The position numbers were made by a program, and so were the translations under genes. Source: a virus. From it: a stretch of DNA of 26,952 nucleotides. The notes under the pieces were generated by a model. That model saw only the letters and a program-made list of their open reading frames with translations. It searched no databases and was not told the origin of the DNA. Shown here piece after piece: positions 1 through 26,883 of the stretch. Position 1 is the first letter of the stretch. Each line of letters opens with the position of its first letter. The DNA lies in IMG/VR virus record IMGVR_UViG_3300036832_001328, positions 1-26,952 of that record. The stretch is one strand, 5' to 3'.

Positions 1-533
1 CTTACGAGAACGACACCAACGTCACAGATACCAATACTGGACTGCCACCGCACAGCATCAGCCTCGTGGTGCAGGGTGGCGATGCTACCCAGATTTGCCA
101 GACGATCCTCAACCACAAGACCCCGGGCTGCTTTACCTACGGCACTACCCGGGAGTCGGTGAATGACGTCTATGGTCTGGCACATGATATCGGTTTCTAT
201 GTGCCGACCCCTGTCACGGTAGGCGTGCGCATCTCGCTGACGGCAAATCCCGGTTACTCTACGCTGATCGGCACGGCGATCAGCCAGGCAGTGGCTGACT
301 ACATCAACAACCTTGGTTCCGGCGAGGATGTGGTCTATTCCAAACTATGGCTGCCGGCCAATCTGTGCGATGTGACGACCGGCTTGCCGAGTGGTGCCAC
401 CAATACCTACGACATCACGGCAATGACCTCGGCCTCACCACCTGGCGGCACCTACGCGACTGCCAACATTCCGATCAGCATTTTCCAGACGGCGACCTGT
501 CTGGCCTCAGATGTGGTGCTGACGGTATCCTGA
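1..533 (+). CDS. Baseplate J-like protein, C-terminal part (5' truncated by window edge)
   Basis: The reading frame is open from base 3 to the TGA at 531-533, so the gene begins upstream of the window; about 176 residues remain. The start of the visible part (YENDTNVTDTNTGLPPHSI) followed by VVQGGD is typical of the C-terminal domain of phage baseplate J-like proteins, which form the baseplate wedge/periphery of contractile tails. A later GEDVVYSKLW segment also fits. The next gene starts one base after the stop, so the two are probably translationally coupled. The family call is from pattern recognition and is fairly safe; the internal ATG at 66 is not a credible start. Confidence 0.85.
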   Translation, partial: YENDTNVTDTNTGLPPHSISLVVQGGDATQICQTILNHKTPGCFTYGTTRESVNDVYGLAHDIGFYVPTPVTVGVRISLTANPGYSTLIGTAISQAVADYINNLGSGEDVVYSKLWLPANLCDVTTGLPSGATNTYDITAMTSASPPGGTYATANIPISIFQTATCLASDVVLTVS

Positions 534-534
534 A

Positions 535-1245
535 ATGACCCTCGGTGACTACCTTGCGCTGATCGGCAGCTGGCACTCCACGCGTCCGAAATATATGAAC
601 ACCATCGCGGCGCTGATCCAGCCGCTGGTGGATGCGCAGGCAATGCTGGCGCAATTGACGGCCGACTTTGATCTGGACACGGCAATCGGCATTCAGCTCG
701 ATCAGGTCGGTCAGTGGATCGGCCGCACGCGCTACATAGAGGTGCCGATCACTGGGGTGTATTTCACCTTCGACGACGGCATCACCACAGCAGGTGACAG
801 TCCACGCACTGGGTTCGACCAGGGGGTATGGTTCAACAAATACGATCCGACCGAGAAGATCGCGGCACTGGATGATGAGACATACCGCTCGGTGCTGAAG
901 CTGCAGGCAATCGCCAATCATTGGGACGGCACGCTGCCGTCGATCGCCGATGCCTTCCATCGCGTGTTCCCTGGTGCCTACATCCAGGATTTGGGCGATA
1001 CTGCAAACGGCCTTATGGCGATGGATGTGCTGCTGCCAGGACCGCTGATGTCCACCTTGATGATCCAGGTGCTGCAGCAGGACTTTCCGATCAAGCCTTC
1101 GGGTGTGTTCATCAACTTCATCGAGACGACCGTCTCCACCGAACCGATCTTCGGCTTCGATGCCGATACCGTCGATCCGCAAAATCCCGGTCCACTGGCC
1201 GGCTTCGACATCGGCAGTTGGGGCAAGATCATCTCGACGCTTTAG
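535..1245 (+). CDS. DUF2612 phage tail/baseplate protein
   Basis: 236 aa. The N-terminus (about residues 1-60) is helical. It is followed by IQLDQVGQWIGRTRYIEVPI, the recognisable core of DUF2612 proteins, which lie directly after baseplate J genes in contractile-tailed phages and take the place of P2 gpI-like tail proteins. A DDETYRSVLKLQAIANHWDG segment at about residues 102-121 is also family-like. The start ATG lies one base after the upstream stop. The C-terminus ends just before a Shine-Dalgarno (AGGGGAA at 1244-1250) that serves the tail-fibre gene. Likely role: a structural protein linking baseplate and fibre. No catalytic motif is visible. Confidence 0.8.
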   Translation: MTLGDYLALIGSWHSTRPKYMNTIAALIQPLVDAQAMLAQLTADFDLDTAIGIQLDQVGQWIGRTRYIEVPITGVYFTFDDGITTAGDSPRTGFDQGVWFNKYDPTEKIAALDDETYRSVLKLQAIANHWDGTLPSIADAFHRVFPGAYIQDLGDTANGLMAMDVLLPGPLMSTLMIQVLQQDFPIKPSGVFINFIETTVSTEPIFGFDADTVDPQNPGPLAGFDIGSWGKIISTL

Positions 1246-1256
1246 GGGAAACCACA

Positions 1257-3188
1257 GTGGCAAACGACTTCCTGACTTTCGCGGGTGATCCTGCGGCTAA
1301 TGTCATGCTACAAGCTGACTATGCTGCGACTGGTTTCACGGCGCGCATTCTCGGCTTCTCGACCGGCACCGCGCTGTCGATCCAGCTCAACAAGGTCTGG
1401 CGGCAGGCATCGCTGATCAGCACGATGATTGCCAACTTCACGGTGACCGAAACCGGCAGCAACATGCTGGATGACGGTTCGCCGGCCGGTATGACGGCAT
1501 TGCAGAACAACTTCGCTGCGGCAATCCGCACTGTGGCGCAGGGTGCGGTCGGCACAGGTTATCTGCCATTGGTCGGTGGCACATTGACCGGTCCGCTGAT
1601 CATCCAGAGCGCCAATGCACTCGATATCAAAGCACCTGTCGGCAGCCCAGCGACCCTCGCGCTGGACAGTGCAGCTGGGCAGTATTGTCAAGTCTTCTCC
1701 CGCACCAACGGCACTGTGCGCTGGTCAATCCTGCACGCCGACAACGCACCGGAGACCGGCGGCAACGCCGGTTCGAACTGGTCACTGTCGCGCTACAGCG
1801 ACGCTGGCAACTACCTCGGCACGCCGCTGTCGATCAGTCGCGCCACTGGGGTCGTCAACTTCACCAATCCGCCGACCTTGAATGGGGCGCCGTTGCCTTA
1901 TCTCTCGATCGGCGGCGGCAACCTGTCCGGTCAGATATGGTTCACAGGCGGTGCCGGCATCACCTATGCACTCGGAAGTTACAGCCATGCGATCGAATAT
2001 GGCTGGGACGGCTCGGAAATCCTTGCCTGGGTCGATGCCACCTATGTCGGCAACCTCGCCACACAGCAGTGGTCGAACAGCGTCTTGACCGGCTATCTTC
2101 CATTGTCGGGTGGCACTCTGACCGGCGCCTTGCAATGCAATGCCTCGCTGGTGGTCAACGGTGGCGCCGGCTTTAGGTCCTCAGTGTGGTTCGCCAACCT
2201 GGGTGACTTCGCCAATTTCACCGATGGCCGCTATCGCTACCGGCAATGGGCTGGGAATTGGTTTGACAACTGGGATGGCCAGACCGGCAACCGCACATGG
2301 TATTGTGCCGGTGGTCAGTCGATGCGGCTTGATGGTGGCGCGGCTCTGACCACGACTGGCATGATCCGCACCGAGAGTGCGCGCCTGATGGTGCAGCACG
2401 GCAGTGTGGCACCTTGCGTTGGCCTGTGGGCACAGTGGGCCGGCGCCGCGATGGGATCATGGTTTGACGGCAACGCGCTGTGGTTTGGCGGTGTCGATGG
2501 CAATGCCAATCCGGTCAGCGGTCTGATGGACATCGCCTTGTCCGGCGCGGTCGGCATAGCGAATACGCTTTGGGTTGGTGGTCAAATCAGTGCCGGTGGT
2601 CTGATCTATTCAAATAGCTATATCCAGGCAGCCGGCGATGTTGATGCCGGAAACAACCTTAATGTTAACGGCAACGGGTATATCCGTGGTCTGCTGGAGG
2701 TGGATAACATCCAGCACACCTATGGCAGCGGCAAAAACGTCAACCATTCCACCTTGCCGTGTTTTGCCATGGACTTCGTGGGCAACTACGCCATGGGCAT
2801 TTCGCTTGGCGTGCTCAGTGCCGCAATGACCTTTGGCTATACCGATGCCGGCGGTCAGCCGCAAGGGTGGATGGGCTTCCTCAACACGGCAGGTGTCTGG
2901 GGCGGCGCCTATTTCCAGACGCTGTCCGGTCGTGCCATCAAGAAGAACATTGAGCCATCACGCGACTTCGATAGCCTGAGCGCAATCCGCCAGGTGGAAA
3001 CCTTCAGCTATGATATGAAGGACAGCGACACCCATCGCGACTTCGGTTTCATTGCCGAAGAACTGGCCGACCTTCTGCCGGACGTGGTAAGCAACTACGA
3101 GGCAGGTCCGACCGTCGATGTGACGGCACTGATCGCGCACGCCTATCGCGCTATCGCCCAACTTGCCAGGCGCATCGACGCCATCTGA
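1257..3188 (+). CDS. Tail fibre/tailspike protein with C-terminal S74 intramolecular chaperone
   Basis: 643 aa from a GTG start at 1257, chosen because AGGGGAA sits 6 bases upstream and the gene then abuts DUF2612; the first in-frame ATG at 921 would overlap the previous gene by more than 300 bases. Two copies of a YLPLxGGTLTG motif (from about residues 102 and 280) and a degenerate third between them are typical of phage fibre shaft/collar repeats. The last 90 residues are a peptidase S74 domain: Ser557 followed five residues later by Lys562 (SGRAIKKN) matches the Ser-Lys dyad that cuts the chaperone off after trimerisation, and FGFIAEEL is also characteristic. Expected role: host receptor binding at the baseplate. 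Confidence 0.88.
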   Translation: MANDFLTFAGDPAANVMLQADYAATGFTARILGFSTGTALSIQLNKVWRQASLISTMIANFTVTETGSNMLDDGSPAGMTALQNNFAAAIRTVAQGAVGTGYLPLVGGTLTGPLIIQSANALDIKAPVGSPATLALDSAAGQYCQVFSRTNGTVRWSILHADNAPETGGNAGSNWSLSRYSDAGNYLGTPLSISRATGVVNFTNPPTLNGAPLPYLSIGGGNLSGQIWFTGGAGITYALGSYSHAIEYGWDGSEILAWVDATYVGNLATQQWSNSVLTGYLPLSGGTLTGALQCNASLVVNGGAGFRSSVWFANLGDFANFTDGRYRYRQWAGNWFDNWDGQTGNRTWYCAGGQSMRLDGGAALTTTGMIRTESARLMVQHGSVAPCVGLWAQWAGAAMGSWFDGNALWFGGVDGNANPVSGLMDIALSGAVGIANTLWVGGQISAGGLIYSNSYIQAAGDVDAGNNLNVNGNGYIRGLLEVDNIQHTYGSGKNVNHSTLPCFAMDFVGNYAMGISLGVLSAAMTFGYTDAGGQPQGWMGFLNTAGVWGGAYFQTLSGRAIKKNIEPSRDFDSLSAIRQVETFSYDMKDSDTHRDFGFIAEELADLLPDVVSNYEAGPTVDVTALIAHAYRAIAQLARRIDAI

Positions 3189-3687: not shown

Positions 3688-3855
3688 ATGAGTCCCCTGC
3701 TGATCATCGTCATCGTTATCCTGCTGGTGCTCGTGCTGGGTGGCGGCTATGGCTACCGCGCCGGGTGGGGCCAGCCGGCCTATTACCCGGGCATCGGCAT
3801 CGTCGGGATCATTCTGATCGTGCTGATCGTTCTGCTGCTGACTGGACGGCTCTAG
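3688..3855 (+). CDS. DUF3309-like small membrane protein
   Basis: 55 aa. Two hydrophobic helices (residues about 3-18 and 34-52, the latter a run of Ile/Leu/Val) flank a central GGGYGYRAGWGQ stretch rich in Gly, Tyr and Trp. This two-helix layout with a glycine/aromatic linker and a terminal LLLTGRL is the DUF3309 pattern, common in rhizobia and other alphaproteobacteria. A GGAG lies about 9 bases before the ATG. It is the last gene of the rightward operon, just upstream of the terminator. In a phage it could be a membrane-acting late protein (for example holin-like), but that is speculative. Confidence 0.7.
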   Translation: MSPLLIIVIVILLVLVLGGGYGYRAGWGQPAYYPGIGIVGIILIVLIVLLLTGRL

Positions 3856-4633: not shown

Positions 4634-4716
4634 CGCCAGGTTCTCCAGATCACGATCAGACAGGCACCGCAGATCGTAAGTGCGACCGGTAGCCAGACTG
4701 TGGTTAATGGTGTCAA
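4630..4716 (-). CDS. Very small membrane peptide (28 aa), TTG start
   Basis: A TTG at 4716 overlaps the TGA of the 701-aa gene, and the frame ends in a TGA overlapped by the next ATG. It would encode a 28-residue peptide with one hydrophobic helix (VWLPVALTICGACLIVI) and a basic C-terminus (WRTWR). Evidence is the overlap at both ends and the membrane-like composition; its length makes it a weak call. Confidence 0.35.
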   Translation of the reverse strand: MTPLTTVWLPVALTICGACLIVIWRTWR

Positions 4717-6818
4717 GTCACCGGTCCGGCGATCGCCTGCTTGCCCGGCCGGGACGCGCCGCCCGCTTCCAAGCCTGCCAGGATCGAAGTTTCCAGCTTG
4801 GCCAGTGCCGGCTCTGCTTCGGCAATGCCAGCCTGCCACGCCACCGCCAGCGCGCATGACAGATACAGCGGATAATCGAGGTCGCCGCTGGGCGGCGGAT
4901 AGTCCGGGCTATACTGGGCCGGCCGCGGATCACCCAGGAACGGCGCATTGCCCGTCCAGGCATCGGCCCAGTTGGGGTAAACATTCACCGGATCAGTGGC
5001 CGCGCCCTTGGCGACATAGCTGGACGGATAGGCGCACGACCAACCAGAGTTCGGATCAAGCCGGGCACTGAGGTTCTTCACCTTCCACTGGGTGATTTCG
5101 TTCCACTGATGCAGGTCAGGATGCAGCAGGGCGATCCACGCCCAGCCACCCGCGCAGATGTCCTCCTGCCAGGGCTGATACCACGTCCAGGTGCCATCCT
5201 CGCCGCTGCCATCGGTGCTGCCGGCCAGTTGGAACACCGACCGGATCGGCGCCGGGTTCATCACCGTTTCCTCATAGACGTGATCGTAAGCCCAGCTTTG
5301 CAGGGCGCGGTGGAACAGTGAGCGCGGCAACAGCCAGGGTGGTGGGTTCTCCGGCGAGACTTTGGCGCACGCGGCCAAAGTGCGCGATGACCAGCCCGTG
5401 GCACGTGGTTGGATCACGCCGTAACCCCGCACGATCGAAGATGGCGACTCCATGATGCACATGACGGTCTGCCGTTGCAGGTTCTCCAGATGGTAGGGAT
5501 CGCCCGTCAGCAGGAACGGCAGGTAAGAGCAGGCCGGCTGATGCGCGGTGTCGAGGTAGATGCCGGTGCCGGGGACGAAGTTGTCTGCGATCTGTGCGCC
5601 AACGCCATCGACTGGTGGGTTGATGCGGCCAGCGCCTGGTGTGCTGATGCCGTAGACTTCACAGCTCACCGTGATCGAGCCGCTGTCGGGGATTTTGGTG
5701 TCGACCGGCACGCGGCACTCGATGTTGTTGGCATCGAGCACCATGTTCCAGGCGGGGGGCGAGCCGTTTGCCGAGAGCACGGTGCCGGGTGGTCCGGCCA
5801 GCATGACGTCAACCCAGTTCGAGGGCACTGACCAGGTGATCCAGGGCGAACCGGCCTGCGCGCTGTAGAGCGTCGATTGTGGGTATTGGTCGATCGGGTC
5901 GATCACGCAGCCGGTGTCCTGGTCGTAGAAATCCCAGGTAAAGGTCCCGGCGGCTTCGGCCTGTGCCATGACGTCGGCGAGAGCGTCGGGGTTGTCCTCG
6001 TTGCCGATATACCAGCCCTGTGCACTGGTGACGTGACCGATGTCGCCGCGCCCGCCGGTCTGCGGCATGTATGCAGTGAAACCACACAGACTCATGGGGG
6101 TGTAGTGGTATTGCCGGCCGGGGTATGGGTCGGTGCCCCTGGTGAGGTTTGGGTCGAAGCGGGGCAAAAGCTTCGCTGCGTAGAGGTCCTCAAGTTTGCG
6201 CATTGGCAGGGGCCAGTCGTTCGACTGCCAGCGCCAACGCTGATAAGCACCGTGCGATGGTACCTCCATCGTGACTGACTCGGCCAGCTCGTCGCCGTTT
6301 ATCTCGACTGTGTATGCCGGCAGATTAACGTGGTTGGTATCCTGCCAGGCGCCTTGAGCGACAATGACCGACACACGTCCTTCCATACGGCGGAAATCAA
6401 CGCGTAGAGGACAATCGTTAGCAAGCACACGAGTGCAACGCTCACTGAAACGTCCATCAGTATCCTGATAGGTGCCGACATCATTGCCATCTGCTTCGTT
6501 GTAGACGAACTGTCGACCGCTCAGGGTAACCACGGCCTGCAGGGTGCCCGCTGGTGGAGGATCAGGCGGGGTGATGTCGACCGGCGGCTCAGGCGGCACT
6601 TCGATGTCGGGCGGCTGCTCTGGCGGAATGATAATAGGATGCTCAGGCTGCGCATCCACGGGCGGCTGTTCCACATCTGGAGGCTTACCCTGACCGGGGG
6701 GAGTTCCACCATGACCAGGTGGTGTTCCGCCTTGACCGGGTGGAGAGGGTGGCTTGCCCATGGTTACCTCGATGTCAAAGGTTATTTCGCCGGATATACG
6801 AATGACGCGTGGCGACAT
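4713..6818 (-). CDS. Large secreted/virion-like protein with proline-rich N-terminus; possible carbohydrate-active (alpha/alpha-barrel-like) C-terminal half
   Basis: 701 aa. Residues about 20-95 are a low-complexity Pro/Gly region (PPGQGG-type repeats, then runs of PPE/PPD). The rest is globular and very rich in Trp, Tyr, Pro and Asp, with a segment (about 430-560) including LLTGDPYHLENLQRQ, then WLLPRSLFHRALQSWAYDHV and QPWQEDICAGGWAWIALLHPD. Paired helices with aromatic and acidic residues recall six-hairpin glycosidase/lyase folds; this is inference. ATG 6818 has AAAAGG about 8 bases upstream; a second ATG at 6761 has a better GAGGT site and would drop 19 residues. It lies opposite the tail operon. 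It may be a depolymerase or structural decoration; no homologue is recognised. Confidence 0.6.
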   Translation of the reverse strand: MSPRVIRISGEITFDIEVTMGKPPSPPGQGGTPPGHGGTPPGQGKPPDVEQPPVDAQPEHPIIIPPEQPPDIEVPPEPPVDITPPDPPPAGTLQAVVTLSGRQFVYNEADGNDVGTYQDTDGRFSERCTRVLANDCPLRVDFRRMEGRVSVIVAQGAWQDTNHVNLPAYTVEINGDELAESVTMEVPSHGAYQRWRWQSNDWPLPMRKLEDLYAAKLLPRFDPNLTRGTDPYPGRQYHYTPMSLCGFTAYMPQTGGRGDIGHVTSAQGWYIGNEDNPDALADVMAQAEAAGTFTWDFYDQDTGCVIDPIDQYPQSTLYSAQAGSPWITWSVPSNWVDVMLAGPPGTVLSANGSPPAWNMVLDANNIECRVPVDTKIPDSGSITVSCEVYGISTPGAGRINPPVDGVGAQIADNFVPGTGIYLDTAHQPACSYLPFLLTGDPYHLENLQRQTVMCIMESPSSIVRGYGVIQPRATGWSSRTLAACAKVSPENPPPWLLPRSLFHRALQSWAYDHVYEETVMNPAPIRSVFQLAGSTDGSGEDGTWTWYQPWQEDICAGGWAWIALLHPDLHQWNEITQWKVKNLSARLDPNSGWSCAYPSSYVAKGAATDPVNVYPNWADAWTGNAPFLGDPRPAQYSPDYPPPSGDLDYPLYLSCALAVAWQAGIAEAEPALAKLETSILAGLEAGGASRPGKQAIAGPVT

Positions 6819-6842
6819 CCAGTGAACCTTTTGTTACTCGCA

Positions 6843-6869
6843 GAACGGCCGGGCAGTGCCCGGCCGTTC
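6843..6869 (-). terminator. GC-rich perfect inverted repeat between PEP-CTERM and 701-aa genes (terminator/attenuator-like)
   Basis: GAACGGCCGGGCA (6843-6855) and TGCCCGGCCGTTC (6857-6869) are exact reverse complements around one base, giving at least an 11-bp stem. It begins 6 bases after the PEP-CTERM stop in the - direction. No T-run follows on the - strand, so it may act as a weak terminator, an mRNA 3'-end stabiliser or an attenuator before the 701-aa gene. Confidence 0.6.
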
Positions 6870-6875
6870 CCTAGG

Positions 6876-7547
6876 TTATACCTTGCGGCGACGGATCAGT
6901 CCAAGACCCACCAGACCGGCACCGAGCAGCATGATGCTGGCCGGCTCCGGGACAGGCGGCGGAGGTGGTGGAGGCGGAGGCGGTGGCGGACCGCCCGTAT
7001 TCACCGGGATATCCTGACTGACGAGGTTGTAGTTGTTCTGCGTCCCAACCCAGTCGATCTTGAACGCAGGCGCGTAGCCGGCCCAAGTGCCACCGGCATT
7101 CAAGGTCGCCGTGAAGTCGATGGTGATCGGTGTGCCGACCAGCGTGGTTGGGGTTGGCGGGATCGTTGTGTTGTCGAAGCAGAAGAAGTTGCCGTTGCCG
7201 TCACACCCGGTCGAGTTCAGGCCACCGACCAGGAAAGTGAAGTTCGCCGGTGCGGTAACTGACGCCGATGCCAAACCGCCGGCCGGGTTACCGAACGCAA
7301 TGGCATTGATGCCAGTGCGCCCGCCGATCGTGTCGCTGGCCGTATTCTGGCCAGAGATGGTCAGGACAAAGTTGGCGATCAACGGGTTCGCCGTGACCGT
7401 CTCGTCCAACTCGTAGGTGATGCCTTCGCAGTTGCCACCGCAGTTGCCGGCGGAGTTAGACAGTACCAGGGCAGCGTTGGCGGGCAGGGAGATAGCAGCG
7501 GCGATTGCCGCTGCTACCACTCCCAGAGTGATGGGAAGCTTGTTCAA
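6876..7547 (-). CDS. PEP-CTERM exported protein 1 (exosortase substrate)
   Basis: 223 aa from TTG 7547, chosen because a GGGGGG Shine-Dalgarno lies 6 bases upstream and the start follows the previous TGA by one base. The N-terminus (MNKLPITLGVVAAAIAAAIS then LPANA) is a Sec signal peptide with probable cleavage after ANA. The central ~150 residues are Gly/Thr/Asn-rich, beta-like, with paired Cys (CGGNCEG; CDGNGNFFC). A 12-proline tract leads into VPEPASIMLLGAGLVGLGLI and RRRKV: the PEP motif, hydrophobic helix and Arg-rich tail of PEP-CTERM domains. Known for the family: sorting by an exosortase to the outer surface or extracellular matrix in Gram-negatives. No exosortase is in the window, so the host must supply it. 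Confidence 0.88.
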   Translation of the reverse strand: MNKLPITLGVVAAAIAAAISLPANAALVLSNSAGNCGGNCEGITYELDETVTANPLIANFVLTISGQNTASDTIGGRTGINAIAFGNPAGGLASASVTAPANFTFLVGGLNSTGCDGNGNFFCFDNTTIPPTPTTLVGTPITIDFTATLNAGGTWAGYAPAFKIDWVGTQNNYNLVSQDIPVNTGGPPPPPPPPPPPPVPEPASIMLLGAGLVGLGLIRRRKV

Positions 7548-7548
7548 T

Positions 7549-8100
7549 TCAGCCCCCCTTCCGCCGCAACTGGGTGAAGCCCAGTCCCAGCAGGCCGACA
7601 CCGAGCAGGGCAAGACCTGCTGGCTCCGGAGTGGCGAGCGCCTCGGCAGTTGCCGAGAACGACCCCACTTCCTGACCAAGCTGGTTGATCGTCCAGACAA
7701 ACGTGCCCGGCGTCGCTGTGAAGCCGGTCATGTTCAACGTCGCGGGAGCATTGATCGCCAGCGAGTTTGGCGCCGGCGTGAAGCTGCCGCCAGCGTCAAC
7801 CGTGATGGTAGCGACCAGCGGTCCCTCGGTGATGGTGAACAGCAGGCCGGTGCCCACGGTCGGGCTGTAGGTGAAGGCTGGCTGGTTGACCGTCACGCAC
7901 GACAGGCAGGCGATGAACGGCGCGAATGAGCCGGTCTGGTTGGGTGCGAGGCCAGCCGGGGTCTGGCTCAGCACCTGGGTTGAGGTGAAGCTGGCGCCGC
8001 CGATGATGTTGAGTTCACTCCCGGCAGCGATCGGTCCGGCGTAGGCGGTGCCGGCGAATGCCAGCCCGATCAACGCCGTAGAGAGAAGTAAGCGCTTCAT
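7549..8100 (-). CDS. PEP-CTERM exported protein 2 (exosortase substrate)
   Basis: 183 aa. MKRLLLSTALIGLAFAGTAYA is a classic Sec signal peptide with cleavage after AYA. The body is beta-rich with one CLSC pair (about residue 64-67) and many Thr/Ser/Gly. The C-terminus is TPEPAGLALLGVGLLGLGF then TQLRRKGG: a complete PEP-CTERM tripartite sorting signal. AAGGA precedes the ATG by about 6 bases. It is the first gene of a two-gene unit; its stop is one base from the TTG of the second. The two bodies are not obviously similar, so this is a pair of different cargo proteins sharing a sorting signal rather than a clear duplication. The ~85-base leader upstream has no convincing promoter. Confidence 0.9.
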   Translation of the reverse strand: MKRLLLSTALIGLAFAGTAYAGPIAAGSELNIIGGASFTSTQVLSQTPAGLAPNQTGSFAPFIACLSCVTVNQPAFTYSPTVGTGLLFTITEGPLVATITVDAGGSFTPAPNSLAINAPATLNMTGFTATPGTFVWTINQLGQEVGSFSATAEALATPEPAGLALLGVGLLGLGFTQLRRKGG

Positions 8101-8184: not shown

Positions 8185-8520
8185 TTAGATTGTTTCGAGC
8201 ATCTCCCACGTTGTCCGGGCTTTTCTCCTGCGTCTGGTCTTCGGTGTGGCGGCGGTAGACGACCGCGGACCCCAGAACAGGTGCGCCGCCTTTACGCATA
8301 GCCGGTTCTTGCAGCTGTGATAGGTAAGCAGGCGGGGGTCGTTCTCACCTGTTGCCAGCATCAGGGCAACCCGCGGCGCCTGGTATTCCTTGCCGTCGAT
8401 GATGATGCTGCTCGGATAGCCACTCCTGGTTGGATGCTTCCATATCTGGCAGTCACCGTCTGAGCGGGAGTTGGTGTCGAGCCACCAGCGCAGGTCATCC
8501 GCTGAAGGCGACGGCCTCAT
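8185..8520 (-). CDS. HNH endonuclease, homing/phage type
   Basis: 111 aa. The core CQIWKHPTRSGYPSS.. through IIIDGKEYQAPRVAL and then YHSCKNRLCVKAAHLFWG follows the HNH_3-type zinc-finger nuclease pattern (small molecule/zinc Cys pair, then H-x-C...N..CV...HL..G). The C-terminal tail is basic (TPKTRRRRKAR). The ATG overlaps the stop of the upstream coiled-coil gene (ATGA). Free-standing HNH genes are common mobile passengers in phages; this one lies directly upstream of the PEP-CTERM pair and its last codons carry a 17-bp repeat found again at 4306. It could alternatively help DNA packaging, but that usually needs a terminase neighbour. Confidence 0.75.
   Translation of the reverse strand: MRPSPSADDLRWWLDTNSRSDGDCQIWKHPTRSGYPSSIIIDGKEYQAPRVALMLATGENDPRLLTYHSCKNRLCVKAAHLFWGPRSSTAATPKTRRRRKARTTWEMLETI
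8189..8205. repeat. 17-bp direct repeat, copy 2
   Basis: Same 17 bases as 4306-4322. Here it lies in the last codons of the HNH gene (EMLETI-stop). The two copies flank the PEP-CTERM/701-aa/microprotein block. Confidence 0.85.
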
Positions 8521-10944: not shown

Positions 10945-11348
10945 CGTGGACTCCCATGATCATCGATATAGACTGGGTGCTCTGGATCGTAGCCTGCCTT
11001 CTTCAGAATTTTTTCGATGTCGGGAGGCGGGCATCCTTTGGGGCGTTTGATGTCGCCGTTAGGTTGTTTCTCCTTGCGCATGTTGACCGCTTGGATTTCA
11101 GCCCATATCTTCTCCCACGGCAAGCCCATCAGCAGCACAGTGCCGAGTGCCACATAGACGATATCTGCCAGCGCATCTGCCTGCTTGGCAAGATCATGGG
11201 TAGCACCCGCCTCGATAAGCTCACGCAGTTCCTCGAACAGGAAGGTAACGCGCTTCGCCAAAAGAACCTGTGTCAGATGCACGGGTGCATCTGACACAGG
11301 TTCCTCGAACTGAACGCGGAACTTTCTGACGTCCGCGAGTTCGGTCAT
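10941..11348 (-). CDS. MazG-like NTP pyrophosphohydrolase (all-alpha NTP-PPase)
   Basis: 135 aa. ATG 11348 overlaps the stop of the first methyltransferase frame (TGATG). FEELRELIEA (Glu39, Glu40, Glu43) followed by QADALADIVYVALGT (Asp58, Asp62) is the metal-binding EExxE...D pattern of phage MazG-like/phosphoribosyl-ATP pyrophosphatase-like proteins; a KEKQPNGDIKRPKG tail is also typical of the phage group. The enzyme would hydrolyse a dNTP or NTP to the monophosphate. Next to a dCMP-type synthase it could act as the dCTPase that removes normal dCTP, as T4 gp56 does. The gene contains a 40-bp perfect palindrome at 11264-11303. Confidence 0.82.
   Translation of the reverse strand: MTELADVRKFRVQFEEPVSDAPVHLTQVLLAKRVTFLFEELRELIEAGATHDLAKQADALADIVYVALGTVLLMGLPWEKIWAEIQAVNMRKEKQPNGDIKRPKGCPPPDIEKILKKAGYDPEHPVYIDDHGSPR
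11264..11303. repeat. 40-bp palindrome (19-bp perfect arms, 2-base centre) inside the MazG-like gene
   Basis: GAACCTGTGTCAGATGCAC (11264-11282) is the exact reverse complement of GTGCATCTGACACAGGTTC (11285-11303), with GG between them. It encodes in-frame residues (about EEPVSDAPVHLTQV) that fit the family's N-terminal region, so it is not an insertion that breaks the gene. Confidence 0.95.
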
Positions 11349-11674
11349 CAAGCTGCCGCTTCCTTGCGGGGGCGACCAGGGCCACGCTTCATGACAACGG
11401 GCGGAGGTGCGGCTGCGGCCTTCTTCTTGGCCGGCACGGCGGCCTTGGCGACCGGCTTCTTCGCAGTTGTCTCGCCGTTGGCTCCCTTCTTGAGGATGCC
11501 ACGGTTCCAGCTGATGTCGGAAGCCTTGGCGCGCGATCCCTCGAACTGGGCATGCACGGCCTCGAGAATTGCATCGGTATCATCTGACCAATCCGTCAGC
11601 AGGCGGCGGATATAAGCACCTGATCCTTCGCCGTCTTCCCGCGGCGGATAAGCTGGTTGTGCGGCTTTTGCCAT
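11348..11674 (-). CDS. Possible nested gene: AT-hook/Ala-Lys-rich small DNA-binding-like protein
   Basis: An in-frame ATG at 11674, with AAGGA about 9 bases upstream and a TATAAC -10 element at 11708-11713, would give a 108-aa product: EGEGSGAYIRRLL-type domain (about residues 14-60), a Lys/Ala/Pro-rich basic linker and the AT-hook-like KRGPGRPRK. The same domain ends the 14242 gene, where it also has its own promoter and start. The residues encoded just upstream (ILYNLPLQQPEGKLH) look like translated leader, since methyltransferase 2 ends at the equivalent point. Whether nested or only fused is unresolved. Confidence 0.45.
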   Translation of the reverse strand: MAKAAQPAYPPREDGEGSGAYIRRLLTDWSDDTDAILEAVHAQFEGSRAKASDISWNRGILKKGANGETTAKKPVAKAAVPAKKKAAAAPPPVVMKRGPGRPRKEAAA

Positions 11675-12748
11675 GTGTAATTTTCCTTCTGGTTGTTGGA
11701 GGGGCAGGTTATAGAGTATTCCGGGCGGCTTGGCTATATCAAAAACAGCTGGAGACAGGTCATTAAGGCGATTATTTTTCACAAGTCCGGCATAGACCTG
11801 CCTTGCCAGCCATTCCCCTGCTTTCGGCATTACGGCGCGGTTCATCAGACCGGATATCGCGTTATAGCTGGCCTCTGGCCACAGGTAGTCGAGCGGATAG
11901 GAACAGATCGTCGCCAGCTCGTCCTGGGTCAGGCAGCGGTTCTTGGAGGGGTGATAGACCAGCAGAGGCACCGGTGCCGGTTTGTCCCATGCCAGGCGGC
12001 GCGACAGGAACGGTGGTGCATCGATGCGTTGCCCGCGCGCACCGCGTGGCGGGTCAGGGTTTCTAGCCGCATAGACCTTGTGCAGGCTCTCGCCCGGCAG
12101 GGCATGTGGCAACATCTGTATATGCGACTTCGGTGGTACAGGTATAGCGTAACCATTCCTGCGCCTGGGCAAGCCCTTGAAGGCTTCTTTCACCGTGACA
12201 GGTCTGTCAAAGTCCGGTATCTCCCATGGAATGACGACTTTGTGGAAGACGTAGAAGATGCGCTGACGTGACTGAGGAATGCCGAGCCATTGAGCATTGT
12301 GCACGACAATGGTTGTAGCGAAGCCATAAGGTTCGGCCTTACTGATCAGCTCGTCGACATGCGCCCTTCCCTTGGTGAATGACTGAGGGACCGACTCGAT
12401 CGCCAGCACATCCGGATCGACGACATCCATGGCATAGTTGAAGATGTCATGGTGTGCCTGTAGCCTCGGGTCGAGGTGCCAGTTATGTGCCTTGCTGGCA
12501 GTGTTGGCACCAGACCAGATCGCGCAGGGTGGGTTAGCATACATGAACTTGACAAGACCATGCCAGGAGGTCGGCCACTTCGCCGGGCCGCCGAGGTAGA
12601 TCGGCATGCCTGGAAAGTTCAGGTTTACTACGTTGCTGCCATAGCCGTCATGCTCCAGATGCCCGACCACGTTAAAGTGCTCAGCTACACCTAGGGTAAA
12701 GCCTCCGGCATAGATATGCGCACCAAGAGCGTTAATCAGTGAAGGCAT
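11348..12748 (-). CDS. C5-cytosine DNA methyltransferase 1 with C-terminal DNA-binding-like extension
   Basis: 466 aa from ATG 12748 (GGGGG 5-6 bases upstream; overlaps the previous gene by 17 bases). Residues 1-355 are a C5-methyltransferase: divergent SAM motif GAHIYAGGFTLGV (about 9-21), motif IV ANPPC with catalytic Cys75, motif VI ESVP with Glu118, motif VIII SRQRIFYV and motif IX LTQDELATICSYP. The closest relative is the adjacent methyltransferase 2. From residue 359 the frame continues into a separate domain (EGSGAYIRRLL ... FEGSRAKASDISWNRG), then a Lys/Ala-rich stretch and an AT-hook-like KRGPGRPRK. The join crosses a promoter-like sequence and an internal ATG, so the extension may also be made alone. 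Expected role: modification of phage DNA, perhaps against restriction. Confidence 0.85.
   Translation of the reverse strand: MPSLINALGAHIYAGGFTLGVAEHFNVVGHLEHDGYGSNVVNLNFPGMPIYLGGPAKWPTSWHGLVKFMYANPPCAIWSGANTASKAHNWHLDPRLQAHHDIFNYAMDVVDPDVLAIESVPQSFTKGRAHVDELISKAEPYGFATTIVVHNAQWLGIPQSRQRIFYVFHKVVIPWEIPDFDRPVTVKEAFKGLPRRRNGYAIPVPPKSHIQMLPHALPGESLHKVYAARNPDPPRGARGQRIDAPPFLSRRLAWDKPAPVPLLVYHPSKNRCLTQDELATICSYPLDYLWPEASYNAISGLMNRAVMPKAGEWLARQVYAGLVKNNRLNDLSPAVFDIAKPPGILYNLPLQQPEGKLHMAKAAQPAYPPREDGEGSGAYIRRLLTDWSDDTDAILEAVHAQFEGSRAKASDISWNRGILKKGANGETTAKKPVAKAAVPAKKKAAAAPPPVVMKRGPGRPRKEAAA
11708..11736 (-). promoter_or_regulatory. Putative sigma70-type promoter for the nested AT-hook product
   Basis: On the - strand: -35 TAGCCA (11736-11731), 17-base spacer, -10 TATAAC (11713-11708). 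The -35 is weak (4 of 6), the -10 is identical to that of the 14280 promoter, which drives the same domain. Confidence 0.4.
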
Positions 12749-13778
12749 GATGACCCCCTGGCGGCTCAGCTGCATTGAAGATCATCGGAGACAGGTCATT
12801 GATACGGTTGTTGGTCTGCAGGCTCTGGCTGATCTGGAGCGCCAGCCACTCGGCGGTCTTCGGCATGATACCTCTATTCATGTAATGCGTGACATTAGCC
12901 TGACTGCTTCTGACCGGCCAGTGGTAGTCGGTTGGGTAGGAGCAGATCGTGGCAAGTTCGTCCTGGGTCAGACGGCGATGCTCGGTAGGGTGATAAACTT
13001 CCAACGGGACCGGTGCCGGCTTATCCCATGATAGGCGCTGGTGCAGAAAGGAGGGGGCACCTATGTGGGTGCCATTGGGGTTGCGCACTGCCACAGGGGT
13101 GATTTTGTAATAAGTCTGCCGGAGCTTGCCGCCTGGTGGGGTTAGCTTCAGGGACCTCATGATGCGGGGCATAAGGACTGGCAGCTTGTAGCCATTCGAC
13201 GCCCCATTGAGCTTGCTGAAAGCCTGGCGCACAGTCGTAGGCGCTGTGAAGTCCGGCATACTCCACGGGATTACTACCTTATGGAAGATGTAGAAAATGC
13301 GCGGCCGGTTCTGCGGCACCCCAAACCACATGGCATTGTGCCTGACCGCGGTCATGGCATAGCCATAGGTTTCGGCCCGGATGATCTGACTGATGATGTA
13401 GCGCCTTCCCTTGGTGAAGGAAAGCGGCACGGACTCGATCGCCAGGACGTCAGGAGCGACCACATCCATGGCGTAGTTGAAGATATCGTCGTGCTGGTCG
13501 AGCCTGGGGTCCAGGTGCCAACGGTCGGCCTTGCTTGTCTTGGAGGCGCCTGACCAGATAGCGCAGGGTGGGTTGGCGAAGATGAAGCGGGGCGCTTCAT
13601 GCCAAAAAGCCGGCCACTTTGCCGGACCCCCGGTATAGATCGGGAGGTCCGGAAAGTTGAGCCGGACAACATTCGAACCGTAGCCTTCATGCTCTAAGTG
13701 GGCAAGCACTTTGAAGTGCCTGCCCACCCCGAGTGTGAAGCCTCCGGCGTAGATGTGGGCGCCGAGGGCCGGGATCAT
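12732..13778 (-). CDS. C5-cytosine DNA methyltransferase 2
   Basis: 348 aa from ATG 13778, which overlaps the TGA of the upstream gene (ATGA). Motifs: GAHIYAGGFTLGV (SAM binding, residues 6-18), ANPPC with catalytic Cys72, ESVP with Glu115, QNRPRIFYIFHK (motif VIII), and LTQDELATICSYPTDY (motif IX), ending in the MNRGIMPKTAEWLALQI motif X region. It is clearly paralogous to methyltransferase 1 along its whole length (shared NSNVV/GYGSNVV, IYxGGPAKWP, DIFNYAMDVV, WDKPAPVPL segments). The ~50-100 residue stretch before motif IX, where target recognition occurs, is the most divergent, so the two probably have different target sites. No partner restriction enzyme is adjacent. Confidence 0.87.
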   Translation of the reverse strand: MIPALGAHIYAGGFTLGVGRHFKVLAHLEHEGYGSNVVRLNFPDLPIYTGGPAKWPAFWHEAPRFIFANPPCAIWSGASKTSKADRWHLDPRLDQHDDIFNYAMDVVAPDVLAIESVPLSFTKGRRYIISQIIRAETYGYAMTAVRHNAMWFGVPQNRPRIFYIFHKVVIPWSMPDFTAPTTVRQAFSKLNGASNGYKLPVLMPRIMRSLKLTPPGGKLRQTYYKITPVAVRNPNGTHIGAPSFLHQRLSWDKPAPVPLEVYHPTEHRRLTQDELATICSYPTDYHWPVRSSQANVTHYMNRGIMPKTAEWLALQISQSLQTNNRINDLSPMIFNAAEPPGGHHAFTD

Positions 13779-14242
13779 GCCGCTGCGGGCGGCACCCACC
13801 CCTCGTCCTTCTTCAGCTTGCCCTTGTTCCAGCTGACGTCGGACGGGCCGGCCTTGGACCCCTCGAACTGGCTGTGGACGGCTGCCAGGATCGCCTGGGT
13901 GTCGACGTAGCCGGCCTTCAGCAGGCGGCGGATGTAGGCGCCCGACCCCTCACCCTCCTGCACCTTGGGCAGGGTCGAGCCGTTGGCCTTGGCCTTGACG
14001 GTCTTCAGAGGGACGACCTTGGCGCCACCCTTGGGCGCGGCCACGACCTTGACGGCAGGGGCGGCGACTTCCTTCAGGGCAGGGGCCTTCGGGGCGACCT
14101 TGGCGCGCAGGGCGCCGATCTTCTTGGCAGCAGCAGCGGGAACCATTTCAGTCTCTCCAATTTGAGCATCCATTGCCTTCGCGGACTTCCGCGCGGCGGC
14201 GAGTTCCTTGACCGCGAGAGCGGTCGCCTTCTTGGTAGCCAT
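13775..14242 (-). CDS. Basic Ala/Lys-rich nucleoid-like protein with shared C-terminal domain
   Basis: 155 aa from the internal ATG 14242, supported by AAAGGAAC 8 bases upstream and a near-consensus promoter (TTTACA-17-TATAAC). Residues 1-90 are rich in Ala, Lys, Val and Pro (histone H1-like low-complexity tail: ALAVKELAAARKSAKA, then AAPAVKVVAAPKGGAK). Residues about 93-145 are a compact domain (EGEGSGAYIRRLLKAG ... ILAAVHSQFEGSKAGPSDVS ... WNKGKLKK) found again at the C-terminus of methyltransferase 1. DNA binding or condensation is a reasonable guess from charge and composition. It precedes methyltransferase 2 with a 4-base overlap. Confidence 0.6.
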   Translation of the reverse strand: MATKKATALAVKELAAARKSAKAMDAQIGETEMVPAAAAKKIGALRAKVAPKAPALKEVAAPAVKVVAAPKGGAKVVPLKTVKAKANGSTLPKVQEGEGSGAYIRRLLKAGYVDTQAILAAVHSQFEGSKAGPSDVSWNKGKLKKDEGWVPPAAA

Positions 14243-18505: not shown

Positions 18506-18684
18506 GTCGGTTCTCCTTTCTTCCTTGCCAGATGCCACAGCCCGCAGACCTGACACTGGTAGACTGTCATGCCCTTCCGGCCGAAGCCCATCTGCTTCCG
18601 TGCCATATGGGCATCAGCGGGTGACCTAAAAGCCTTCTTCCGGTAGCAGCTGTGCCACAGGGTCTGTTCTAGCGACTTGCGCAT
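18502..18684 (-). CDS. Small zinc-ribbon-like protein
   Basis: 60 aa. SCYRKKAFRSPADAHMARKQ then YQCQVCGLWHLARK: a Cys near the N-terminus, CxxC and a following His, the 'YxCxxCGxWHL' signature of small zinc-binding proteins frequent in actinobacteria, proteobacteria and their phages. ATG 18684 rather than the GTG three bases earlier; the choice is not firm. Probably a nucleic-acid-binding accessory protein. Confidence 0.72.
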   Translation of the reverse strand: MRKSLEQTLWHSCYRKKAFRSPADAHMARKQMGFGRKGMTVYQCQVCGLWHLARKKGEPT

Positions 18685-18690
18685 CACTCT

Positions 18691-18912
18691 TCACACTTTC
18701 TCCTTTGTTACCCGCCTGATAGCAGCGATGAACTTGTCCATTTCCGGCTTACCGACCACGGAGGCGATCAGGGCGCGGGTGGTGAAGTCGTCGATGGGCT
18801 TGCCTTCGCGGACCCTTGCAGCGAGCACGTTCCACAGCCGGGCCAGAGGCACCGGGCCTATGACCCTCTCTGCCATCCGGACGGCTCCATTGAAGTCAAT
18901 GGTCTTGTTCAT
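18691..18912 (-). CDS. Small helical protein, unknown (73 aa)
   Basis: ATG 18912 overlaps the upstream TGA (ATGA). FNGAVRMAERVIGPVPLARL then FTTRALIASVVGKPEMDKFI are alternating helices, with a basic C-terminus. No family recognised. Confidence 0.65.
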   Translation of the reverse strand: MNKTIDFNGAVRMAERVIGPVPLARLWNVLAARVREGKPIDDFTTRALIASVVGKPEMDKFIAAIRRVTKEKV

Positions 18913-24992: not shown

Positions 24993-26883
24993 TTGTCTTC
25001 TCCATCTCTGCCCAGTTTGGGCCGGTCTTGCCTTCCGAACGGATCGGCACGTCGATGTCGCCAACCTCGTCCATTGCCCCTCGGAGCAGTTTCATCGACT
25101 TCTCGAGCCTGCCTGGCGGCACTGACAGCACGATTTCGTCATGCACAGACAGGATCAGATGGCCCGGTCCGACTGCTTCGTATATCCGTATCATGGCCTC
25201 CTTGGTCTGATCGGCAGCCGAGCCTTGGATGAGGGTGTTCACCATCTTGTATTCATAGGTGGTCTCGATGCCGTCAACGATGCGTGGTTTCTCGCAGTAG
25301 TAAAGCCGGCCACCTGTGGTGCGCACCGGCTCGCCGATCCGGGCCTTGTAGGTGAGGTCCTTCTTCAGATAGAGGATGCCGGGAAACGCCTGGAAGTAGG
25401 CATTGAGCAGGCTCCTTGCCTTCTCCACCGTAGTATTGAGACTCTTTGCCAGTTTGTTGAAGCCGGCGCCATAGAGAATGGAAAAGTTCAAGGTCTTGGC
25501 ATCACGGCGGATCACCTTGACGTTGGTCGTCTTGCCGACCATATCGCCGGTATGCTGGTGAAAGTCAATATCCGGGTTGTCGAGATAGCTTTTCCGCATC
25601 GCGCCATCCTCGAAGTGAGCGAGGATACGCAGCTCCTGGCTGGAGAAATCGCGCAGACACAGCACGTGGTTTTTGTAACTGCAGATGTAGCGCCGGCACA
25701 GCGGCAAGGGCGGCAGGTCCTTGACCGGAGGCTTGATGCCATTGGCGAACAAGGGATCGAACACGGTCGGGATATTCTGGAAGTTTGGGGAGGATGACAG
25801 ACGACCTGTGCGCGCCCCGCCACCATTGCCGCGGGTCTGATGCCAGACGGTATAAATCATGCCCTTGGATTGTTTGGCTGTGGCGAGCCAGGGTTCCATG
25901 AAAGTGCCGAGGCAGGTGCGCAGCCTGGACAGATAGGTCAGGGTAGCGGCAAGCTGCTTGTCGGCAACGGCTGCGTTTATGGCGGCAGCATCGGAGGCAG
26001 GCTTACCGGTCATGGTAATGCCAAGTTTGGTTCTATCAACCAGGCCGGACCTATCGAGGGCCTCTATCAGCTGCTGACCGCTCTCGAGGTTCACTTCTGG
26101 TTCACAGCCAATACGGGTGCGTACCCAGTTCTCAAGTTTCATTGCCAGGTCGCGGTAACGCAGAATATCGGCGTTCAGCAGGGGAACGTCGACCGCCACC
26201 CCGCGCTTCTCCATGTCGAGGAGGACAGGCAGCAGACGGCGTTCACGGTCGTAGGCGCCCAGCATGTCAGCCTTGGCAATCCGCGGATAGAGATACTGGA
26301 ACAGTGCCTCAGTGCGCTCAACGTCACCAATAGCATAAGGACCAACAATCTCAGCCGGCGCATAAGCGATATACTTTCCCGGAGGTTCCTTGCCTTTCAG
26401 GGAGGTGGATATCTTGATGCCCGGCACTGGCTGGTTCGTGGTCAGCCAGTCATTGAGCTCGTCGCGCTCACCGGCAGGATAGTTGAACAGCCGCTCGCAA
26501 GCCTGCTTCAGGCCAATGGCACGGGCATTAGGGTCATCGAGGAACAGCAGAAACATAGTATCGTGGACGCGCTGCCATGGCGGAATAGCGATGCCGAAGT
26601 GGGTCTCGATGACGTCAAGGTCAAATTTGCAGTTGTGGAACAGCACGCCGTCGGGATTGGCATAAGCCTTGCGGATTGCCTCCAGGGCTTGTGCCCCGGA
26701 GGCGTTGTTCCACTTGTATTTCGCTGCGAGGTGAGAATTTGGAACTACATGTCCAAACCCGAAGTATTTCGACTTCTTTCCCCATTCCTTGACAGCGACC
26801 CCGACCGGCAGCGGAGGATAATCAGGTCTCGGCTCTATGCCGAAACTCTCAATATCTACAATGGTGGGCCGGGGAATTTTCAT
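24985..26883 (-). CDS. Phage DNA polymerase I (family A) with 3'-5' exonuclease domain
   Basis: 632 aa from ATG 26883. Exonuclease: VDIESFG (Asp10-x-Glu12), LFHNCKFDLDVI (ExoII), YAIGDVERTE (ExoIII). Polymerase: motif A LRDFSSQELRIL, motif B RRDAKTLNFSILYGAG, motif C ILSVHDEIVLSV. The 5'-nuclease domain is absent, as usual for T7-like and related phage polymerases. The start overlaps the upstream stop as TGATG. All catalytic residues are present. It is the main replicative polymerase. Confidence 0.94.
   Translation of the reverse strand: MKIPRPTIVDIESFGIEPRPDYPPLPVGVAVKEWGKKSKYFGFGHVVPNSHLAAKYKWNNASGAQALEAIRKAYANPDGVLFHNCKFDLDVIETHFGIAIPPWQRVHDTMFLLFLDDPNARAIGLKQACERLFNYPAGERDELNDWLTTNQPVPGIKISTSLKGKEPPGKYIAYAPAEIVGPYAIGDVERTEALFQYLYPRIAKADMLGAYDRERRLLPVLLDMEKRGVAVDVPLLNADILRYRDLAMKLENWVRTRIGCEPEVNLESGQQLIEALDRSGLVDRTKLGITMTGKPASDAAAINAAVADKQLAATLTYLSRLRTCLGTFMEPWLATAKQSKGMIYTVWHQTRGNGGGARTGRLSSSPNFQNIPTVFDPLFANGIKPPVKDLPPLPLCRRYICSYKNHVLCLRDFSSQELRILAHFEDGAMRKSYLDNPDIDFHQHTGDMVGKTTNVKVIRRDAKTLNFSILYGAGFNKLAKSLNTTVEKARSLLNAYFQAFPGILYLKKDLTYKARIGEPVRTTGGRLYYCEKPRIVDGIETTYEYKMVNTLIQGSAADQTKEAMIRIYEAVGPGHLILSVHDEIVLSVPPGRLEKSMKLLRGAMDEVGDIDVPIRSEGKTGPNWAEMEKTSD

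Follow-up and report, generated by a model that had tools for sequence, protein, structure and literature searches.

Does a phage supply its own cargo to the exosortase of its host? To our knowledge, exosortase sorting has been described solely in bacteria, which use it for proteins of their matrix and surface, and the function of exosortase cargo is poorly understood. The question is raised by two genes, here called A and B, in IMG/VR record IMGVR_UViG_3300036832_001328, a linear fragment of 26,952 bases which was analysed whole and is referred to as the window. We lean towards a positive answer: A and B are probably phage-encoded substrates for a host exosortase of the XrtA/EpsH type, which would alter the surface or matrix of the infected cell.

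The tandem genes and their sorting tails

Both open reading frames fall exactly inside positions 6876-8100 on the minus strand and form a tandem cassette, i.e., two neighbouring same-strand PEP-CTERM genes with non-homologous bodies. The features of the locus and its surroundings are:

3-3188, plus strand: tail genes (baseplate wedge, DUF2612 structural protein, tail fibre with endosialidase chaperone), from family matches
4713..6818, minus strand: 701-aa ORF with Pro-rich N-terminus (GKPPGQGGTPPGHGG, PEHPIIIPPE) and Pro-rich repeats, immediately downstream of B
6835..6882, minus strand: strong hairpin just past B, from folding (13-bp stem, -28.1 kcal/mol, z -4.2, without T-run)
6876..7547, minus strand: gene B, 223 aa, predicted secreted protein with signal peptide, all-beta body, 12-Pro linker and PEP-CTERM tail at 198-222 (translation; PF07589, TIGR02595)
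6882..6953, minus strand: PEP-CTERM sorting signal of B (TIGR02595, E 6.7e-8, 29.1 bits)
7549..8100, minus strand: gene A, 183 aa, predicted secreted protein with Sec signal peptide at 1-21 and PEP-CTERM tail at about 156-180 (TPEPAGLALLGVGLLGLGFTQLRRK) (translation; PF07589, TIGR02595)
7558..7632, minus strand: PEP-CTERM sorting signal of A (TIGR02595, E 1.1e-5, 22 bits)
8185..8520, minus strand: HNH endonuclease-like gene directly upstream of A (phrog_1872, E 3.9e-11)
From the DNA polymerase (26.9 kb) down to A and B, then the 701-aa ORF, minus strand: long gene block (ORF list, family matches)

A preliminary description had read the pair as tandem genes with Sec signal peptides and complete PEP-CTERM tails, including an Arg cluster and, in one protein, a spacer of 12 Pro. 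Model searches bear out the tandem tails. Within the full record TIGR02595 (cut-off 16 bits) matched A and B and nothing else, and both proteins also passed PF07589 (B 28.8 bits, A 22.6 bits, cut-off 20.7 bits), while B additionally exceeded the TIGR03370 VPLPA-CTERM cut-off (27.8 versus 25.35 bits). The 12-Pro spacer is real and belongs to B. PEP motif, helix and basic end are thus present over model cut-offs; however, A ends in RRK and lacks the long Arg cluster. The N-termini of A (MKRLLLSTALIGLAFAGTAYA, followed by GP) and B (MNKLPITLGVVAAAIAAAISLPANA, followed by AL) both show, by eye from sequence, a charged n-region, a hydrophobic core and an AXA cleavage site without a lipobox, and the same signal-peptide features were seen in their homologues.

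The two genes are tightly coupled. The TTG start codon of gene B at 7547 follows a G-rich Shine-Dalgarno sequence, and only one base separates this start from the stop of gene A at 7549, which suggests co-translation of A and B. Scans for consensus sigma-70 promoters and T-run terminators were negative; the hairpin after B is a possible transcript end. When the A and B families were compared as profiles, only the sorting tail aligned, the bodies being unrelated, and B is therefore not recognisable as a duplicate of A. AlphaFold2 modelling gave an all-beta core for B (block pLDDT up to 81) and a poor, unreliable model for A. Fold searches with the body structures gave no significant match; those for the body of B were scattered and sub-threshold, carbohydrate-binding modules among them, with none at E < 0.001.

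The phage genome around the pair

The contig is a phage, with Caudoviricetes-type hallmark genes on each side of the pair. Family searches in the window identified a baseplate wedge, the DUF2612 structural protein, a tail fibre and a DNA polymerase as flanking hallmarks, and found no terminase in this fragment. The minus-strand block comprises helicase-like, exonuclease-like, methyltransferase, thymidylate synthase, dCMP deaminase and HNH genes and then A and B, so that the pair closes a replication and nucleotide-metabolism block and is not part of a virion operon. At 11348-13799 this window also holds two neighbouring cytosine-5 DNA methyltransferase-like genes which resemble each other, the copy at 12732-13799 matching PF00145, and a small DUF3309 membrane protein lies at 3688-3855 between the tail genes and the 701-aa ORF.

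Homologues of gene A were found in six other IMG/VR contigs (37-79% identity) and homologues of gene B in six viral contigs (about 50%). One contig with relatives of both is IMGVR_UViG_3300036846_000650 (G004, 53.7 kb), in which the cassette has the swapped order B-A and is followed by a homologue of the 701-aa ORF. Identity between G004 and the window is 74-79% for A, 51-52% for B and 51-68% for the tail genes. Between these two genomes we obtained for A dN 0.19, dS 0.87 and a dN/dS of about 0.2, and for B dN 0.45, dS 1.23 and a dN/dS of about 0.36. As both ratios lie well below 1, they point to purifying selection and thus to maintenance of both proteins.

The 701-aa ORF matched no known family in family searches and is a probable partner or virion protein. 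A second phage (G002, 75 kb) has a tail module in common with the window, carries a homologue of this ORF inside its tail operon and holds a PEP-CTERM gene of another family (C, see below) elsewhere. Pro-rich 'HPI/PDNTLP' ORFs resembling the 701-aa ORF were also seen near PEP-CTERM genes at loci L015, L039, L043 and L066. A Pro-rich repeat ORF lay within two genes of a PEP-CTERM gene in 6 of 10 contigs (permutation p 0.018, obtained after the filter was loosened; the first filter gave p 0.12), and this association is suggestive only.

PEP-CTERM genes among viral contigs

The phenomenon is wider than the preliminary description supposed and extends to more than 100 related viral contigs. A tail-only survey of IMG/VR yielded 50 viral contigs, and the TIGR02595 search that had been proposed for the window and its relatives gave, besides the two matches in the window, one or two in 39 of 40 surveyed records. 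After removal of signal peptide and tail, the bodies clustered into one large family (C), a second family (D), the A and B families and a number of minor groups. A search of IMG/VR for family C led to at least 103 confirmed contigs, 80 of which were kept. Tandem pairs recur in the combinations A+B, B+A, D+B, C+B, C+E and others, and at two loci (L145, L150) three PEP-CTERM genes stand in a row.

In all 12 tandem pairs tested, the partner bodies were without detectable homology, so the common property is the sorting tail. A conserved tail on varied bodies, frequently in two proteins of one phage, would also suit decoy substrates: abundant phage cargo would occupy the host exosortase, host matrix proteins would be mis-sorted, and the loosened matrix would let virions disperse. 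We hold this to be distinctly unlikely, because purifying selection conserves the bodies, and a mere decoy could do without that.

The position of the genes varies between phages. PEP-CTERM genes abut or closely flank the terminase at L066, L060, L043, L015, L027 and L093; at L090 they come after the major head protein. Since the terminase and head neighbours in these seven phages belong to different PHROG families, the habit must have arisen or spread across unrelated phages. Terminase phrog_2 occurred in 20 of the first 40 records and in 20 of the further 30. The vicinity of the terminase is a common site of lysis genes, and signal peptide plus C-terminal helix could make A and B bitopic proteins that help to breach the outer membrane; a single-pass membrane protein could use such a tail as a mere anchor, which speaks against cargo. 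It fits this lysis role that a gap of 3 bases separates the A homologue of one phage (G007) from a small upstream ORF, without Pfam or PHROG match, which we take to resemble BPSL0067-type proteins. However, the whole tripartite tail, PEP motif included, is kept in nearly all members, family C among them, which exceeds the needs of an anchor. No lysis family was matched and the pair in the window is not beside a recognised lysis gene; a role in lysis thus appears unlikely.

Two further proteins were noticed near such genes. A small conserved single-helix protein (RALPPAFLLLVLLNIVFLGVASYVF) occurs at L066 (12942-13145), L059 (6101-6277), L083 (G017, 25426-25650) and L092 (G001, 18667-18879), near PEP-CTERM genes in three of its contigs; it is holin-like at a glance and gave no family match. 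Beside or near a PEP-CTERM pair, L066 (10814-11809) and L082 (8500-9672) encode a protein that begins VGQSIQ.AI..A..GDTIDV..G.Y and by eye looks like a right-handed beta-helix protein, without Pfam or PHROG match.

That the phage carries exosortase cargo and lacks an exosortase, as the preliminary description stated, agrees with our searches: none was found in the window, and none over cut-off in the 71 records considered (the window plus 40 plus 30). Most of these are fragments, so that a single absence is weak while absence across all 71 is strong. One record (G056) held a single sub-threshold exosortase fragment. Tyrosine integrases were present in 5 of 70 records (2 of 40 and 3 of 30); with so few integrases most of these phages look virulent, with the reservation that the records are mostly fragments.

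Peptide-pattern scans of 84,980 bacterial and archaeal species genomes gave no confirmed relative of B or C. Since a pattern employed in the scan is present in 64 of the 72 C members from viruses, close cellular relatives would have been seen, while distant ones would escape a scan whose patterns partly derive from the same C sequences. Families B and C thus look phage-specific, as far as these scans reach. Family C also aligns to the Zoogloea protein PepA (NF033554) beyond the tail, up to E 3.6e-14, which makes an ancient host origin likely. Plasmids gave no match to family C. Phage isolates were searched by tblastn in 50,697 INPHARED records; A, B and members of families C and D returned no match, nor did a tail-only query, a negative to which the low-complexity filter of BLAST leaves no weight. 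No PEP-CTERM protein was present in five isolates that rank among the nearest when judged by their DNA polymerase or DUF2612 protein.

Viral contig collections can contain host DNA wrongly classed as viral, and PEP-CTERM genes are common among environmental bacteria. The contig might therefore be chimeric, or A and B recent and functionless stray captures from a host, and host chromosome at the pair was what the preliminary description had itself named as fatal to its proposal. Present evidence already contradicts this: phage genes flank both sides, G004 is syntenic, more than 100 viral contigs are involved, PEP-CTERM genes adjoin terminase, portal or capsid genes in other phages, B and C are without confirmed relatives in species genomes, and dN/dS is below 1. 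We regard a host-DNA origin as very improbable.

Possible roles of the proposed phage-borne exosortase cargo

A and B resemble the PEP-CTERM/exosortase (EpsH/XrtA) system of PF07589 and TIGR02595 in signal peptide, PEP motif, hydrophobic helix and basic end. They differ in being encoded by a phage without exosortase, and the bodies of B and C in having no confirmed relative in the genomes scanned. The flocculation-associated PEP-CTERM protein PepA, known from Zoogloea and its relatives, is a further near counterpart; phage family C aligns to roughly its C-terminal two-thirds, the best score among the matches listed being 44.9 bits. Matches to A (E 1.4e-4, 21.7 bits) and B (E 0.0011, 18.9 bits) are weak or confined to the tail region. 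However, A, B and C all stay under the 80-bit cut-off of NF033554 and are thus not PepA members, and pepA is a host gene under RpoN/PrsK-PrsR control.

A study of Yellowstone virus contigs lists, among host-derived genes, 13 proteins of family TIGR03118, which have an exosortase-interaction domain (PMC11003980). They are alike in being carried by viral contigs, but represent another family, mentioned in passing with function given as unknown and without a tandem cassette. Beyond this, exosortase cargo encoded by phages was described nowhere in the literature searched (mostly open-access, few subscription journals, no bioRxiv preprints as such), in line with the preliminary description, which knew of no such system.

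Based on the known PEP-CTERM pathway, A and B would be exported by Sec during infection, and their C-terminal helix would keep them in the inner membrane. The host exosortase would then cleave them at the PEP motif, and the products would reach the outer surface or the exopolysaccharide matrix, where their beta-rich bodies may change the surface presentation or polysaccharide holding of the infected cell. The likeliest benefit is that the infected cell and its neighbours are kept aggregated or coated through the lytic cycle. Overexpression of PepA bypasses the requirement for PrsK/PrsR in floc formation of Zoogloea (PMC9012009), and phage cargo could thus plausibly change aggregation within one lytic cycle.

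We rank superinfection exclusion next as a benefit. Here the exosortase pathway would be the same and the purpose different: the sorted proteins would coat or mask the phage receptor and block re-infection. The preliminary description had likewise suggested, as examples of a purpose, that other phages are excluded or that attachment is altered. Other phage products alter the host surface too, although we know of no surface-modification or superinfection-exclusion gene that uses the exosortase route. The pathway evidence, i.e., tails over cut-offs and no phage exosortase, serves this reading equally. It is compatible with mainly virulent-type phages, for which lysogenic conversion would be no aim, and with a pair that ends a replication and nucleotide-metabolism block rather than standing in a virion operon. 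In many other phages, however, the genes sit in packaging or head modules, which are usually late; no receptor is known, and the defence-library search with PADLOC gave no match. Overall, we consider exclusion rather doubtful as the main purpose.

Returning to cargo that alters the cell exterior, the recurrence of PEP-CTERM genes in more than 100 environmental phage contigs suggests that many phages may use the host exosortase in this way. A broader proposal, which we put forward tentatively, is that virulent phages of uncultured exosortase-bearing bacteria widely carry phage-specific cargo, whose paired secreted proteins, evolved within phages, would hijack the exosortase and remodel the infected cell's matrix, so that infection would drive aggregate or biofilm structure. 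If phages do supply exosortase cargo, infection could act directly on the structure of flocs, biofilms and soil aggregates, and the viral proteins would give exosortase research a natural collection of compact, varied substrates. As the host range of such phages should be limited to bacteria with an exosortase, the PEP-CTERM tail may also act as a host marker.

Two family C loci (L133 and L153, at about 6001-6580) encode a body without the tail, which ends in VPGR before the stop; this loss could mark a phage with a changed host.
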